A DNA stretch of 64,000 bases from Natrialba asiatica DSM 12278 (GTDB lineage Archaea; Halobacteriota; Halobacteria; Halobacteriales; Natrialbaceae). Positions within the stretch are counted from its first letter, which is position 1. Every line of letters begins with the position of its first letter. The translations under genes and the position numbers were made by a program. Below, piece after piece: positions 5,488-21,581 of this stretch. The notes beneath the pieces are model-generated. The model was not told where the DNA came from, searched no databases, and saw only the letters and a list, made by a program, of their open reading frames with translations. The stretch spans positions 81,159-145,158 of the forward strand of contig NZ_AOIO01000034.1 in the NCBI RefSeq assembly GCF_000337555.1, written 5' to 3'.

Positions 5488-6135
5488 TCACTCCGCCTGT
5501 GACGAAGCCGATACTGCAGTCATGAGCCGCGCTTCGCTGTTGCGCAGATGCTCGGAGGCGGTACTGCGGGCGCATCCAACTCGCTCTGCAACGTCGATCG
5601 CGGTCGCGGTACGGGGCGTCGCATAGTAGCCAACCGCCACGGCGGCCTCAATTACTTCGCGTTGGCGAGGAGTGAGTAGCGTCTGCATCTCGGGGGCGTC
5701 TGGGATGTACGTGCCGACTTGCTCGATCGTCGTCTGAGCGCGGATCTCTTCCGGAAAGGCCTGATATGCGTCGGACAGTCCCCGTTCGTAGCCGACAATG
5801 CGGACCGTCACGTCAGACCCGCCGCCGAATCGAATCGGGAGATCGATCAGCAGGGAGTGCGTCCCGAGCAGCTCGTAAAGGCGACAAAGGTGTTCATCCG
5901 GGCGGCCGCGAATATACACATAGCCCTGTCGTCCGTCACGCTCACAGACTTCGTACTGTACGTAGTCGGGACCGTCTTCGAGTTCAGCGACGAGTTCGTC
6001 AATATCACCGTCGACATAATCGAGTTCGAGGCTTGTTCCATCACGGAAGACTCGCATGTTGAGGACTGCTCCCCGAGTGATGGCTGGACTCGGCGAGAAG
6101 ACATCTTCATCAAATGTCAGACGGAGATAACGCAT
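5488..6135 (-). CDS. Bat-type helix-turn-helix transcriptional regulator
   Basis: This 215-residue protein has the layout of the bacterio-opsin-activator HTH family. An N-terminal sensor-like region (about 1-150) has no cofactor motif. The C-terminal HTH_10 domain reads LTPRQREVIEAAVAVGYYAT followed by PRTATAIDVAERVGCARSTASEHLRNSEARLM. A TATA element (TATTAAG, minus strand, 6161-6167) lies 29 bp before the ATG, so the mRNA is probably leaderless. It is one of three intact Bat-type regulators within 8 kb. Its target is unknown. The nearest unpaired transport gene is the broken CPBP/ABC cluster downstream. Confidence 0.92.
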   Translation of the reverse strand: MRYLRLTFDEDVFSPSPAITRGAVLNMRVFRDGTSLELDYVDGDIDELVAELEDGPDYVQYEVCERDGRQGYVYIRGRPDEHLCRLYELLGTHSLLIDLPIRFGGGSDVTVRIVGYERGLSDAYQAFPEEIRAQTTIEQVGTYIPDAPEMQTLLTPRQREVIEAAVAVGYYATPRTATAIDVAERVGCARSTASEHLRNSEARLMTAVSASSQAE

Positions 6136-6944: not shown

Positions 6945-8090
6945 GTGGTGAGCAAACGACCACAAGTCACTGACTGGAAGAGTTCACCGATGGGTACTCT
7001 CTCTGCAGTCAAAACGAAACTCGATCGTCGAACACGAGTGGGAACCGACGAACGCACCCGTGAGACGACCACCGACTACGAGGTGACTGTCCACGAGACG
7101 ATCGACAGCATCGATCGTTCACGGTGGAATCACGTCGTTGCCCACGCGAACCAAGCGAGCGTTTTCCATCGCTACGAGTGGCTCGAGGCGATCGAAACCG
7201 GGCTCGGCTACACGCCGAACCACGTCGTCGTGACCAAAGACGGCAATCCGATCGGAATCCTCCCGAACTTCGTCGTCGATCTCCCGAAAGTTCCGTTCCA
7301 ACGGCTCTGGTCGACGTATCCCGGGTTTGGCGGTCCCGCGATTACGACCGACACCGCCGAGACTCTCGATGCGATCCTCGAGATAGTCCCAACACTCTGT
7401 ACCGGTCGGACCATCGTTCACGAAATCCGGGCTCACGATACGGAGTATCTCCAGTACAGCGACGTGCTCCGCTCGCACGGGTATCGACCAGCACGGTCGA
7501 AGGGGCGATTCGTCCTCTCCCTTACGGACGGGTACGACCGGGTCCGGTCAGGGATGAGCGACTCGAGACGCAAGGGAATCGAGCAGGGCAAAGCCCACCC
7601 CTACGAAATCGTTGAAGAAGAACTCACGCGAGCAACGCTCGAACGATTTCACCGCGCGTACGAACGGCACATGGAACAGATCGGCGGCGACGCCTACCCG
7701 CTTGCGTTCTTCGAGAACCTCTTGGCGATGGACTCGCGGCTGCTCCTCCTGACCCTCCGGCTCGACGGCGAGTACGCGGGCGGCTTTCTCGAACTGCTCG
7801 ACGACGAACAGTCCGCCGTTCACGGCTTCTTCGCCGCCGTCCCGGAGGAATACTACGACGACCACGCCTCGGAACTGCTCTACGACGCCGTGATCCGGTG
7901 GGCGATCGACAACGGGTACGACGCCTACGACTTCGGCGGGGCGACCGGTGACTTTCGAAGCGGCCTGTTCCGGTTCAAAGCGGGGTTCGGCGGCGAACTC
8001 GTCCCGAATCTCTACTGGGAGCGCGGCGACGGACTCCGCTGGAAATTTGTGACCGCTGGCCGTGAACTCTACCTTCGGATGCGACAGTGA
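6945..8090 (+). CDS. FemAB/peptidoglycan-bridge-type GNAT aminoacyltransferase homologue
   Basis: The protein (381 residues from the GTG, 366 from the ATG at 6990) has the double GNAT fold of the FemAB/FemX family. The first half contains FHRYEWLEAIETGLGYTPNH and PKVPFQRLWSTYPGFGGPA. The second contains YPLAFFENLLAM, ELLYDAVIRWAIDNGYDAYD and FGGATGDFRSGLFRFKAGFG, with the typical ending FKAGFGGELVPNLYW. In bacteria the family moves amino acids from aminoacyl-tRNA to cell-wall precursors. Archaea lack murein, so the substrate is unknown (surface glycan or polysaccharide modification is an inference). TTAAAT at 6915-6920 sits 25-30 bp before the GTG, favouring a leaderless start there. A tRNA-like gene follows 149 bp downstream. 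Confidence 0.9.
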   Translation: MVSKRPQVTDWKSSPMGTLSAVKTKLDRRTRVGTDERTRETTTDYEVTVHETIDSIDRSRWNHVVAHANQASVFHRYEWLEAIETGLGYTPNHVVVTKDGNPIGILPNFVVDLPKVPFQRLWSTYPGFGGPAITTDTAETLDAILEIVPTLCTGRTIVHEIRAHDTEYLQYSDVLRSHGYRPARSKGRFVLSLTDGYDRVRSGMSDSRRKGIEQGKAHPYEIVEEELTRATLERFHRAYERHMEQIGGDAYPLAFFENLLAMDSRLLLLTLRLDGEYAGGFLELLDDEQSAVHGFFAAVPEEYYDDHASELLYDAVIRWAIDNGYDAYDFGGATGDFRSGLFRFKAGFGGELVPNLYWERGDGLRWKFVTAGRELYLRMRQ

Positions 8091-8238
8091 CCGCTTCACC
8101 GAAGAACGAGTTCGGTGCAGATTGCGGACTGGTACTACGAGTCTGATCGTCCCAACTGATGCGAACGTCGTTTCAGCTGATGCAAACGAGAGATGGGCTG
8201 AAGTGGGTAGCACGCGTGTGATATACTGTCGGAAACGT

Positions 8239-8309
8239 GTCCGAGGTGGTCTAACGGTAAGATTCGCTCCGTGTGAGCGAGATACGCGGTTCGAGTCCCG
8301 TCCTCGGAC
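8239..8309 (+). tRNA. tRNA-His-like gene (GTG), non-canonical or degenerate
   Basis: The acceptor TCCGAGG pairs with CCTCGGA, and an extra encoded G before position 1 can pair with C73, the hallmark of tRNA-His. The D-arm is GTCT/AGAT around AACGGTA. The anticodon stem is TCGCT/AGCGA with the seven-base loop CCGTGTG, placing GTG (His) at 34-36. Oddities are a C instead of U33, U37 and G38 in the loop, no base at position 26, and one bulged C in the T-stem (ACG-C-GG against CCCGT around TTCGAGT). A TATA-like box (GATATACT) is at 8219-8226. It may be a specialised tRNA, a decayed duplicate or an integration scar. tRNA-Pro at 21.5 kb shows none of these defects. Confidence 0.58.
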
Positions 8310-8584: not shown

Positions 8585-9073
8585 TCACGAAGGTGTGTTC
8601 GATGAGCGTGTCCGAGCAGCCTGCACAATCGCATCGCTGCATTCCTGTACGGCATCGCGCAGTTCATCGCTGAAGCGGTGGTGCCACGCCCGCCAGAATG
8701 TCGATTGGTTCGGGAGGGTTTCGAAGCCGAGGTCGCGACCGAGCGATGGATTCGCTCGCAGGTGACCGTGGAGCGCGATCTCGTCCCAGCCGTTGACCAT
8801 CTCGATAATGAACGCTCGCACTAGTCTCACCACCGGATACGGCCTCGAGTACGGCGCTAACGAATCACACGTATCGAACGTGCACTGGTCAATCGGAAGG
8901 CGACAGGCCAGCGTTTCGATGTCGCCACAGTCGGTAGCACGCTCGCACCACGATTGCGCGATGGTCGTGACAGCTGAGAAGTCGTCCAGCTCGTTGGCTG
9001 ACCCTTTGGATTCGAGGGCGAAACAGCGGAAGGCAGTCTGCAGGGCGCCATCTAGTGAATCAGCTAACTCGTG
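8585..9073 (-). pseudogene. Truncated haloarchaeal transposase (N-terminal fragment)
   Basis: The translation from about 9073 to 8585 contains PIDQCTFDTCDSLAPYSRPY, VRAFIIEMVNGWDEIALHGH and LPNQSTFWRAWHHRFSDELRDAV. This is the N-terminal region of a transposase type common in haloarchaeal insertion sequences. The frame ends after about 160 residues at RTRSSNTPS, before any catalytic acidic triad. No start codon lies in the recognisable part: the frame only opens inside the neighbouring permease gene. No terminal inverted repeats were identified. It is an inactive fragment marking past insertion next to the tRNA-like sequence. The exact IS family cannot be named with certainty. Confidence 0.82.
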
Positions 9074-9962
9074 AACTCGCCACGCGTCGCAGCAAGAAGA
9101 CGGCGATACCACCGAATACGAGATTAAACACACCGAGCACTATCACCGCAGGCACGACGGTATTCCAGATGCCGGAGAACGCCGTTACGTCGATTACAGT
9201 AAGGACATCCTGGCCGAGCATCAGCGCACGGACGGCATCGACACCGTACGTGATTGGATTGATCGTTGCCACTAGCTGCATCCACTTCGGGAGAACGCTG
9301 ATCGGCACGAAGGCACTTGAGGCGAAAAACAGGGGATACTGCACGAGATACGCCCAAATAGCGGCCGATGTGGCGTCCTGCGTCACGAGTGCAGCGATGT
9401 TTGAGAAGGCCGTAAACCACAGCGCAAACACGACGACGATGGCGAAGACTCCGAGCACGCCTCCCAGTCCCGTTTGGATGTAAGTCCCGACCGAGCCGCC
9501 GGAATCGATCCACAAGAGTACGTATCCGAGCACGAGAATCATCCCCGTTTCAATGATGATCCGGATCATATCTGCGAGGGCTTTCCCGAGGAACATCGCC
9601 CCACGGTGGGTCGGTGAGACGAGTATTTTGTCGAACATGCCGCTGTTCATGTCGTCGATCAACCCCATTCCCGAGTGGGTGGCTACCACCATGGCTGAGA
9701 GGATGACGATGGATGGCGTGAGGAAGGTAACATAGGTGACGTCCGCTCCGAACAGTTCTTGGATTGGCCCTCCGGCGAGCTGCCCGAACACCTGCGTGAA
9801 TAATATCAAAAAGACAAAGGGCGTTATCAGTGCCTCAAACACCACAGACGAGTTACGAACGGCTTTCCGGAGCCAGCGTTTGAGCGTGATCCACACATCG
9901 ACGAGGAAGCTGTTGCCAGCCGCTTGCTGTTCGACTGCCCGCGCAGTTTCGGTCGTACTCAT
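9060..9962 (-). CDS. ABC-2 type exporter permease (DrrB-like)
   Basis: This 300-residue protein has six predicted membrane helices. The N-terminal cytoplasmic helix leads into LKRWLRKAVRNSSVVFEALI, followed by ITPFVFLILFTQVFGQLAGG, and the ABC-2 signature region lies near LPKWMQLVATINPITYGVDA. It should form the channel of a multidrug or lipid exporter with the ATPase encoded just upstream. The ATPase stop and the permease ATG overlap (ATGA), so they are coupled. The C-terminus (FLLRRVASSRVS) appears complete although a transposase relic lies directly behind it. The substrate is unknown. DrrAB systems export anthracyclines and related hydrophobic compounds. Confidence 0.93.
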   Translation of the reverse strand: MSTTETARAVEQQAAGNSFLVDVWITLKRWLRKAVRNSSVVFEALITPFVFLILFTQVFGQLAGGPIQELFGADVTYVTFLTPSIVILSAMVVATHSGMGLIDDMNSGMFDKILVSPTHRGAMFLGKALADMIRIIIETGMILVLGYVLLWIDSGGSVGTYIQTGLGGVLGVFAIVVVFALWFTAFSNIAALVTQDATSAAIWAYLVQYPLFFASSAFVPISVLPKWMQLVATINPITYGVDAVRALMLGQDVLTVIDVTAFSGIWNTVVPAVIVLGVFNLVFGGIAVFLLRRVASSRVS

Positions 9963-11427: not shown

Positions 11428-12111
11428 ATGAGATACATAACCGTCGTCTTAGCCCTGACGGAAGACTACATTCGGTCGCAGAGCCACCAACAGATGCAGG
11501 AAAGTACCAACGATCCAAGAGAGGTATGGATCGATGGGACGCTCGTCGCGACCCAGGAAGCGATACACTACGTGAATCTTCTCGATGATGGGACCGCCGT
11601 TGGAATCGTGCAGTTCCGAGGTGATGCTGATCGTCTCGCAACGATAGAAGACGAAAACCCAGAGATCATCTCGTGTACCGTAACGGGTGGTGAGACGTGG
11701 CTGGCGTATCTCAGGTACAAGCCCGAAGCGTTTCAAACAACGCTTTTCGAACTCTTCGATACCGAAGCGATCAGTATCGACTGGCCAATGAGGGAGACTG
11801 CTGACGGACTGCAAGTCACCCTCTTCGGTGAGGATGCAGCCCTCCAGCAGATGATCGCTAGCGTCCCTGACGAAATGGACCTCCGTCTCGAACGAGCAGG
11901 AGAGTATCAACCGCAGATGGATGACCCAGCAGCGCAACTCACTGACCGACAGAAAGAGATCGTGCGAGCAGCGATCGCAGCGGGATACTACGACATCCCA
12001 CGGCGTACAACACATCGTGACTTGGCGACCGAACTCGGATTGTCACAACGGACGATCGGAGAACATCTTCAGCGGGCGGAAGCAAAGATCATTCAGTCTG
12101 TAATCGTCTAA
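11428..12111 (+). CDS. Bat-type HTH regulator divergent from the ABC exporter
   Basis: This 227-residue regulator has an N-terminal sensor-like region (about 1-165) and a C-terminal HTH_10 domain: LTDRQKEIVRAAIAAGYYDI then PRRTTHRDLATELGLSQRTIGEHLQRAEAKI. It is transcribed away from the DrrAB-type exporter across a 420-bp spacer containing a palindrome. This arrangement suggests that it controls the exporter and perhaps itself. No cofactor-binding motif is visible, so the signal is probably a small molecule bound by the N-terminal half or a protein partner. Codon use is slightly more AT-rich than in the housekeeping part of the window. Confidence 0.92.
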   Translation: MRYITVVLALTEDYIRSQSHQQMQESTNDPREVWIDGTLVATQEAIHYVNLLDDGTAVGIVQFRGDADRLATIEDENPEIISCTVTGGETWLAYLRYKPEAFQTTLFELFDTEAISIDWPMRETADGLQVTLFGEDAALQQMIASVPDEMDLRLERAGEYQPQMDDPAAQLTDRQKEIVRAAIAAGYYDIPRRTTHRDLATELGLSQRTIGEHLQRAEAKIIQSVIV

Positions 12112-12498: not shown

Positions 12499-13176
12499 AT
12501 GACAGTTACTGCGGAACTCCTCGTTAGTTCACCCTCGCTTCCGTTCGTTAGTTTCGCAGAATCGTTACCGTCCAATCAACTCGAGTGTGTACACGGCCTG
12601 TGTCTCGGAGGGGACTCTCAGGTGTTCGTCGTCCATCTCGACCCAGCCGATGGCGTTACCGAAGATGATCTCATTGCTCTTGATGAAGTAGTGGAGACAA
12701 CCTCCCTTGGACGCGAGAGCGGCAGGGACGTCTATCAGCTCGGCGTCAAACTGGATGATATCGTTTCGGAAGCGTTCGTTCCCGGACAGTTCGCTAAGGC
12801 TCAAATAGAACCGACGATTATCGTTCCAGAGGGATGGTACGAAAAGAAGGTTGTTCGGGATTATGATTCGTTCAATAATATGCGGAATCATTGCGATGAG
12901 CACGGCATTCGGGTCGATCTTATCTCGATCACGCAGGATTCTCCGTCCCCAGATGAACACTCACAGTACGGGCTAACTGACCGGCAATACGAGGCACTGG
13001 CGCTCGCTATCTCTCGCGGATATTACGACAATCCCCGACAGGCCACGGCCGGCGACTTGGCTGAGGAGATGGGTATTTCTCAACCCTCGATGTCGAACCT
13101 TCTCCGTCGAGGGGAGCGCCAGTTACTCACGTCGACGATCGGGACACAGCCATCGCTGACTAACCCTTCGACGTGA
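12499..13176 (+). CDS. Bat-type HTH transcriptional regulator
   Basis: This 225-residue protein has a divergent N-terminal half (about 1-155) and a clear C-terminal HTH_10 domain: LTDRQYEALALAISRGYYDN then PRQATAGDLAEEMGISQPSMSNLLRRGERQLL. The TATA-like ATTAAG 28 bp before the ATG indicates a leaderless mRNA. It lies upstream of, and in the same direction as, the aldo/keto reductase gene (219-bp gap with its own TATA box), so a regulatory link to that gene is possible but not shown. Its sensor half differs from the other two Bat-type proteins nearby, so it probably senses a different signal. Confidence 0.92.
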   Translation: MTVTAELLVSSPSLPFVSFAESLPSNQLECVHGLCLGGDSQVFVVHLDPADGVTEDDLIALDEVVETTSLGRESGRDVYQLGVKLDDIVSEAFVPGQFAKAQIEPTIIVPEGWYEKKVVRDYDSFNNMRNHCDEHGIRVDLISITQDSPSPDEHSQYGLTDRQYEALALAISRGYYDNPRQATAGDLAEEMGISQPSMSNLLRRGERQLLTSTIGTQPSLTNPST

Positions 13177-21315: not shown

Positions 21316-21508
21316 TCATTCCGCTTCGTATCGACGACGCCTTCACTCGATTTTCCGCTCGAATCGGCATCGATCTACGCGCCGTTGATCGGTTTTGCCA
21401 CTGTTCGAATCACACGAGACTCGTCTCACTTGCTCTCGTTCGCTTCGCTCACGAGAACGCGGTTACAGCACCCGAAGGCACCGCTAGAGGAACGAAAGTG
21501 GGGAAAAG

Positions 21509-21581
21509 TGGGCCGGCGCGAATTCGAATCGCGGTTACGGCCACCCGAAGGCCGAAGGATACCAAGCTACCCCACCGGCCC
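21509..21581 (-). tRNA. tRNA-Pro (CGG)
   Basis: The 73-base cloverleaf reads GGGCCGGTGGGGTAGCTTGG at its 5' end. The acceptor stem is GGGCCGG/CCGGCCC with discriminator A. The anticodon arm is CGGCC-TTCGGGT-GGCCG with U33 and anticodon CGG. The T-arm is CGCGA-TTCGAAT-TCGCG. All stems are fully paired and no intron is present. The CCA end is not encoded, as usual in archaea. Confidence 0.97.

Follow-up and report, generated by a model that had tools for sequence, protein, structure and literature searches.

A FemABX-type transferase gene and a tRNA-His-like gene in Natrialba asiatica: a candidate for a dedicated, non-decoding tRNA in haloarchaea

Does the tRNA-His-like gene that follows a Fem-type transferase gene in Natrialba asiatica DSM 12278 supply that enzyme with an amino acid, or is it a tRNA gene in decay? 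The first of these possibilities had been put forward in a sequence-only reading of the locus, which lies in a stretch of 64,000 nt (hereafter the window; positions are counted from its first letter). The way in which aminoacyl-tRNA is diverted from translation is an open question, for which the staphylococci offer one well-known example of a special tRNA; for most non-staphylococcal cases it has been described as 'somewhat unclear' (PMC4052509). No earlier report of a Fem/pseudo-tRNA-His pair was found in the open-licence literature.

The transferase

The gene for the Fem-type, putatively aminoacyl-tRNA-dependent transferase (hereafter Fem) was located at 6990..8090 on the + strand and encodes 366 aa from an ATG codon. 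An alternative GTG start is present at 6945; the ATG at 6990 is the better-fitting start, as the ORF of Natrialba aegyptia opens with the identical MGTLSAVKTK. Three Pfam families (Acetyltransf_6, FemAB_like and FemAB) exceeded their cut-offs on the window ORF, and the NCBIfam model TIGR03019 (pepcterm_femAB) scored 64.6 bits, far below its curated cut-off of 260 bits. Searches of the PDB returned the aminoacyl-tRNA-dependent peptide synthase 9wqy by sequence (E 7e-8) and the FemX of Weissella viridescens by profile (E 4e-8). The AlphaFold2 model (pLDDT 86.5) had Sba18/Sbb17, FemX and FemA as its top Foldseek matches, with E-values to 9e-17 and TM-scores to 0.80 of the target for Sba18, FemX and FemA, followed by tandem GNATs and MprF. 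Both the Pfam matches and the model give the protein the FemABX-type double GNAT fold.

The Phe followed by a catalytic Lys that marks FemABX transferases was also present, with F329-K330 aligned to Phe304-Lys305 of FemX and K330 invariant across 48 sequences. Lys305 of FemXWv has been reported as catalytic and Lys329 of DhpH-C as essential (PMC12945691), and K330 is, by alignment, the counterpart of both. The nearest solved relatives of Fem are all users of aminoacyl-tRNA, and the use of such a donor by Fem itself is predicted. Fem matched its counterparts in Natrialba taiwanensis and N. aegyptia at 97% and 95%.

Murein is absent from haloarchaea, so an acceptor other than a peptidoglycan precursor is expected for the archaeal enzyme. 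Neighbouring genes gave no clue to it, as the HD hydrolase, zinc dehydrogenase, epimerase, HTH-10 and transporter genes varied by lineage and formed no pathway. Nothing that was found supports the surface-modifying role that the sequence-only reading had attached to Fem. Three regulators with an HTH_10 domain were observed within 8 kb (5488-6135 on the - strand, 11428-12111 and 12499-13176 on the + strand), two of which carry the HVO_0513 N-terminal domain.

A class of tRNA-His-like RNAs

After a gap of 148 bp from the Fem stop codon, a 71-nt gene for a tRNA-His-like, apparently non-decoding RNA was found at 8239..8309 (+ strand), with G-1 at 8239 and C73 at 8309. It reads GTCCGAGG TG GTCT-AACGGTA-AGAT T CGCTC-CGTGT-GAGCG AGAT ACG(C)GG-TTCGAGT-CCCGT CCTCGGAC and was assigned an 8-bp acceptor stem with G-1:C73, a 4-bp D-stem, a 5-bp anticodon stem and a 5-bp T-stem, all arms being on the + strand. 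The 5' strand of the acceptor stem (G-1 plus 1-7; 8239..8246) pairs with the 3' strand (8302..8309, ending in C73) with zero mismatches. Both sides of the stem in the D-arm (GTCT AACGGTA AGAT; 8249..8263) are changed relative to the tRNA-His-type elements. Rather than a 7-nt loop with U33 and GUG, the anticodon arm (8265..8279), the stem of which covaries, carries the 5-nt loop CGTGT (8270-8274) without U33. In the T-arm (8284..8301), the C at 8287 bulges out between positions 51 and 52. The Pfam matches, the gap and the 5-nt loop thus bear out the earlier description of a Fem-like transferase followed by a tRNA-His-like gene with an odd anticodon loop.

The proposal of a dedicated tRNA presupposed another, normal tRNA-His, and one was present: the 4.4-Mb source genome, with 46 RF00005 matches (tRNAs being gathered by search and region), contains a single canonical tRNA-His (C38:78486-78557, anticodon GTG) and one full copy of hisS. 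The window RNA was called neither by ARAGORN nor by Rfam at the gathering score. The Rfam result is a weak negative, since Rfam also overlooks the tRNA-Pro at 21508-21581. That gene, on the - strand, is a complete tRNA-Pro(CGG) called by ARAGORN and is absent from the RF00005 matches even at E <= 1. By bare energy, the window RNA favours a non-cloverleaf fold (-34.4 kcal/mol) over the cloverleaf (-24.8 kcal/mol), and its cloverleaf therefore rests on homology and covariation; for two Natrinema/g10-type members that were tested, the energy fold was the cloverleaf.

BLAST searches with the window element retrieved copies at 98% in two congeners, 89% in genome G093 and 81% in G099. No substitution was observed among the 71 positions of the RNA in three Natrialba species, whereas the window and N. 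taiwanensis differed at 52 of 293 flanking positions, taken from the 148 bp before the gene and some 150 bp after it (p = 6e-6). Across genera, compensatory changes were seen in the anticodon stem (CGCTC/GAGCG, CGACC/GGTCG), and the acceptor stem, most of the D-arm and the bulged T-stem are unchanged.

A covariance model built from three sequences was run over 391 Halobacteria and revealed further paralogs of tRNA-His, in genomes of the Natrinema type and in others, giving a class that consists of the window RNA and 20-odd more elements. Its members are marked by G-1:C73, by an anticodon loop shortened to 5-6 nt (with one exception) and by a single additional base on the 5' side of the T-stem. 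The T-stem strands are GCG[C/T/G]AG against CTCGC and, in Natrialba, ACG[C]GG against CCCGT, so that no element of the class has an unbroken 5-bp T-stem (6 nt in the 5' strand against 5 nt in the 3' strand in all). In alignment A5, all 24 elements have a loop of 5-6 nt and all 24 keep both G-1:C73 and C50-G64, and the D-loop GG is kept in 23, the exception being that of G099. The cores of the loops vary (GTG, GTA, GTT, GTC), and most are GTG-like. A variant in G008 has a 7-nt loop with C33, and its T-stem (GC[T]GAG) is bulged one step earlier than those of the others. Compared with tRNA-His, the Natrialba-type RNA is altered in three stems (D, anticodon and T).

Across the 24 aligned elements, 95.8% of the pair cells were standard and 9 of the 22 pairs had changed on both sides, against 22-52% of cells paired in slid-structure controls on the same alignment; as manual padding fitted the A5 alignment to the cloverleaf, these figures lean towards it. 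No promoter box with shared conservation was seen upstream of the elements, as judged by eye. In the family scan, a match scoring about as high as a canonical tRNA-His (77.6 bits) recurred once per genome beside any paralogs, and those that were read were canonical. The consistent alteration of anticodon loop and T-stem across the class supports the non-translating character suggested for the window RNA. The class comprises conserved tRNA-like genes that ARAGORN either overlooks or calls without an amino acid. Degenerate copies were also seen at loci L335, L338, L348 and L352, as an extra copy in Natrinema gari and in three Fem-less genomes; the latter copies look as if they were decaying after loss of the enzyme.

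Linkage, co-occurrence and inheritance

The RNA was found beside Fem in 10 of the 30 best Fem loci of Natrialbaceae, in 10 genomes of five genera, with measured gaps of 24-148 bp and with Fem orthologs 59-97% identical to that of the window. Three arrangements were observed: Fem followed by the RNA on the same strand (three Natrialba and G093), the RNA followed by Fem on the same strand (G099), and the two genes tail to tail (G023, G025, G027, G028 and G104). The conserved adjacency that the sequence-only reading had left to a search of relatives is therefore real. In G094, the RNA faces a C-terminal fragment of Fem, and an intact Fem is located elsewhere in the genome. No extra aminoacyl-tRNA synthetase gene was seen beside the Fem-RNA pair. 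In Natrinema, the RNA is not linked to Fem and occupies two other conserved loci, one between TFB and NadE, beside a tRNA-Gly (CCC) (L101, L103, L106, L111, L114, L117 and L118), and the other between the genes for prephenate dehydratase (pheA) and Bcp, where the second copy of a genome is often found.

Co-occurrence was assessed in 125 Natrialbaceae genomes, with 52% identity or more defining a Fem ortholog. Both genes were present in 32 genomes, Fem only in 24, the RNA only in 4 and neither in 65 (Fisher p = 1.3e-10, in a test that ignores shared ancestry). For the Natrinema-type genus, the corresponding numbers were 20, 2, 2 and 5 (p = 0.003, phylogeny likewise being ignored). Broken pairs or altered invariant bases were seen in three of these lone RNAs (G024, G061 and G065), and the fourth (G087) sits at the end of a 7.5-kb contig. 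The 24 genomes with Fem and no detectable RNA of the class indicate that the pairing is not obligatory. Around the RNA-less Fem genes (38-40 loci), covariance-model and T-loop scans for hidden RNAs returned only two tRNA-Ala and known elements. When 25 genomes with Fem and no RNA were scanned at other sites for cryptic RNAs, one came to light, that of G008, the other extra matches most likely being ordinary tRNA-Asp and tRNA-Gly. In the RNA-less lineages, either the RNA is not strictly needed or the enzymes use canonical His-tRNA.

In a midpoint-rooted Fem tree, the ortholog clade divides most deeply into two groups, each with RNA-positive sequences. One subclade of 19 sequences had no RNA and was mostly found at a fixed site near idi and carA; Fem of N. 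chahannaoensis, N. hulunbeirensis and two more Natrialba genomes belongs to this RNA-less clade, at the idi/carA locus. Fem of the window species and its two sister species is instead sister to that of G093, which is from another genus and has an RNA 89% like theirs. The simplest reading is that this group of Natrialba appears to have gained Fem and the RNA as a unit, by transfer or replacement. Two tandem Fem orthologs were present at the idi/carA locus of G107 (a Natronorubrum; L212), and more distant paralogs (39-44% identity; L240, L241) in two Natrinema-type genomes.

A possible dedicated tRNA and its alternatives

A dedicated, histidylated, non-translating tRNA that feeds the Fem-type enzyme is the reading that we consider probable. 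The dedicated-tRNA part of the original proposal is supported by the conservation, the covariation and the recurrent association with Fem. We infer that the RNA, which would descend from tRNA-His, is transcribed and processed, that the ordinary cellular HisRS charges it with histidine, that it escapes both aEF1A and the ribosome, and that Fem takes the histidine from it and joins this by an amide bond to some acceptor. The histidine identity elements of archaea are N-1, C73, C50-G64 and G29-C41, and the anticodon is not read by the HisRS of A. pernix (PMC9976931). Charging with histidine would be expected from the retention of G-1:C73 and C50-G64, the anticodon independence of the A. pernix HisRS and the single full hisS. 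Decoding would be barred by the short anticodon loop, an RNA with a loop of 5-6 nt being unlikely to decode. The specificity of EF-Tu depends on pairs 49-65 and 51-63 (PMC4052509). A49-U65 is found only in the Natrialba-type RNA; pair 51-63 stays G-C and is next to the bulge in all members. Binding of the elongation factor aEF1A would probably be poor on account of the bulged T-stem, given A49-U65 in the Natrialba type and a bulge adjoining pair 51-63 in all (one step earlier in G008).

Simple decay of the RNA, which the sequence-only reading had named as its main alternative, is ruled out by the invariance in three Natrialba (0/71 against 52/293) and the covariation, and the repeated pairing of the RNA with Fem, in several gene orders, also speaks against it. 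The RNA might still be a relic, a copy of tRNA-His left behind by an integrating mobile element or by a duplication and decaying beside Fem by chance, as tRNA genes are common integration sites, a truncated transposase-like ORF (DUF772; 8585-9133, - strand) lies just downstream and decayed copies exist at L335, L338, L348 and L352. However, the element is of full length and has diverged from the tRNA-His of the host, its oddities are invariant, its changes are compensatory and absent over three species, and it adjoins Fem repeatedly in several arrangements; none of the annotated neighbours of the pair was recognised as an integrase, and this origin was rejected as very improbable. It is just as hard to credit that the pseudo-tRNA still translates, as a minor or frameshifting tRNA-His: most loops retain a GTG-like core, but they are of 5-6 nt and lack U33, the T-stem is bulged, and each genome examined has one gene that scores as a canonical tRNA-His. 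A virus-borne element was also considered and discarded, as viral_contigs yielded neither an exact match to the pattern nor, in a search for close relatives, a relative of Fem.

Two further alternatives keep the tie to Fem. The RNA could act as a regulator or decoy instead of a donor, for example as a sensor in its charged or uncharged state, as an element for 3' processing or stability of the Fem transcript, or as a blocker of an RNA-cutting toxin. Regulatory pseudo-tRNAs do exist, such as the tRNA-Other of B. cereus (PMC3399842), and a co-directional RNA gene after Fem is what Natrialba and G093 have. A role in cis is hard to reconcile, however, with the tail-to-tail loci, with an RNA placed ahead of Fem or with the unlinked loci of Natrinema, whereas the retained G-1:C73 and C50-G64 fit charging and the partner enzyme has a fold that uses aminoacyl-tRNA; we regard this as unlikely. 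A dedicated tRNA for Fem that carries an amino acid other than histidine would accommodate the variable loop cores and the departure of the Natrialba type from tRNA-His in three stems. It is at odds with the invariant G-1:C73, the clear ancestry from tRNA-His, the one full HisRS in the genome and the lack of any extra synthetase gene seen beside the pair, and seems quite improbable.

For the dedicated-tRNA reading taken as a whole, we lean by a little towards a private-tRNA pathway of haloarchaea, in which a ribosome-barred paralog of tRNA-His, inherited or transferred with Fem, would supply histidine for the histidylation of a cell component. If true, it would be the first archaeal tRNA reserved for amide synthesis outside the ribosome, and we know of no earlier histidine tRNA of such a dedicated kind. 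The pair would point to a novel archaeal amino-acid modification. With a tRNA that is apparently disabled for decoding, lies in linkage with its enzyme and comes and goes between closely related genomes, it makes the diversion of aminoacyl-tRNA from translation directly testable in a cultivable, non-pathogenic organism.

The combination of a FemABX-type enzyme and an extra tRNA with T-stem changes resembles the tRNA-Gly/FemXAB system of S. aureus, in which the cell-wall (non-proteinogenic) tRNA-Gly has A49-U65 and A51-U63, changes thought to evade EF-Tu (PMC4052509). A49-U65 is common to that tRNA and the Natrialba-type RNA. The present system differs in being archaeal, with tRNA-His instead of tRNA-Gly, a destroyed anticodon loop and a bulged T-stem; in 10 genomes the RNA shows genetic linkage to the enzyme, there is no peptidoglycan acceptor, and the RNA keeps the D-loop GG (except in G099), whereas G18G19 is replaced in S. 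aureus. The tRNA-Other of B. cereus is likewise a conserved tRNA-like RNA outside translation, and its loss alters the cell wall (PMC3399842), but it has a Trp anticodon, is poorly charged with Lys, forms part of a larger regulatory RNA and has no reported Fem-type partner. With canonical haloarchaeal tRNA-His, its putative ancestor, the pseudo-tRNA shares G-1:C73, the acceptor stem (in the wider class), C50-G64 and the T-loop; the canonical tRNA differs in its 7-nt anticodon loop, its unbulged T-stem and its one copy per genome.

On the enzyme side, the double-GNAT fold and the active-site Phe-Lys are shared with Sba18/Sbb17 (PDB 9wqy, 9wqw and 9wqx), the streptothricin-type Orf11 and DhpH-C/VlmA/PacB (PMC12945691), the Sba18/Sbb17-type peptide synthases being the best match to archaeal Fem in both sequence and structure. 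All of these belong to bacterial natural-product pathways, whereas the archaeal gene has no pathway genes alongside, and no dedicated tRNA for such synthases is mentioned in PMC12945691. The FemX of W. viridescens (1ne9, 4ii9), which uses Ala-tRNA and UDP-MurNAc-pentapeptide, is alike in fold and in the position of the catalytic Lys305, at about 17% identity to archaeal Fem.
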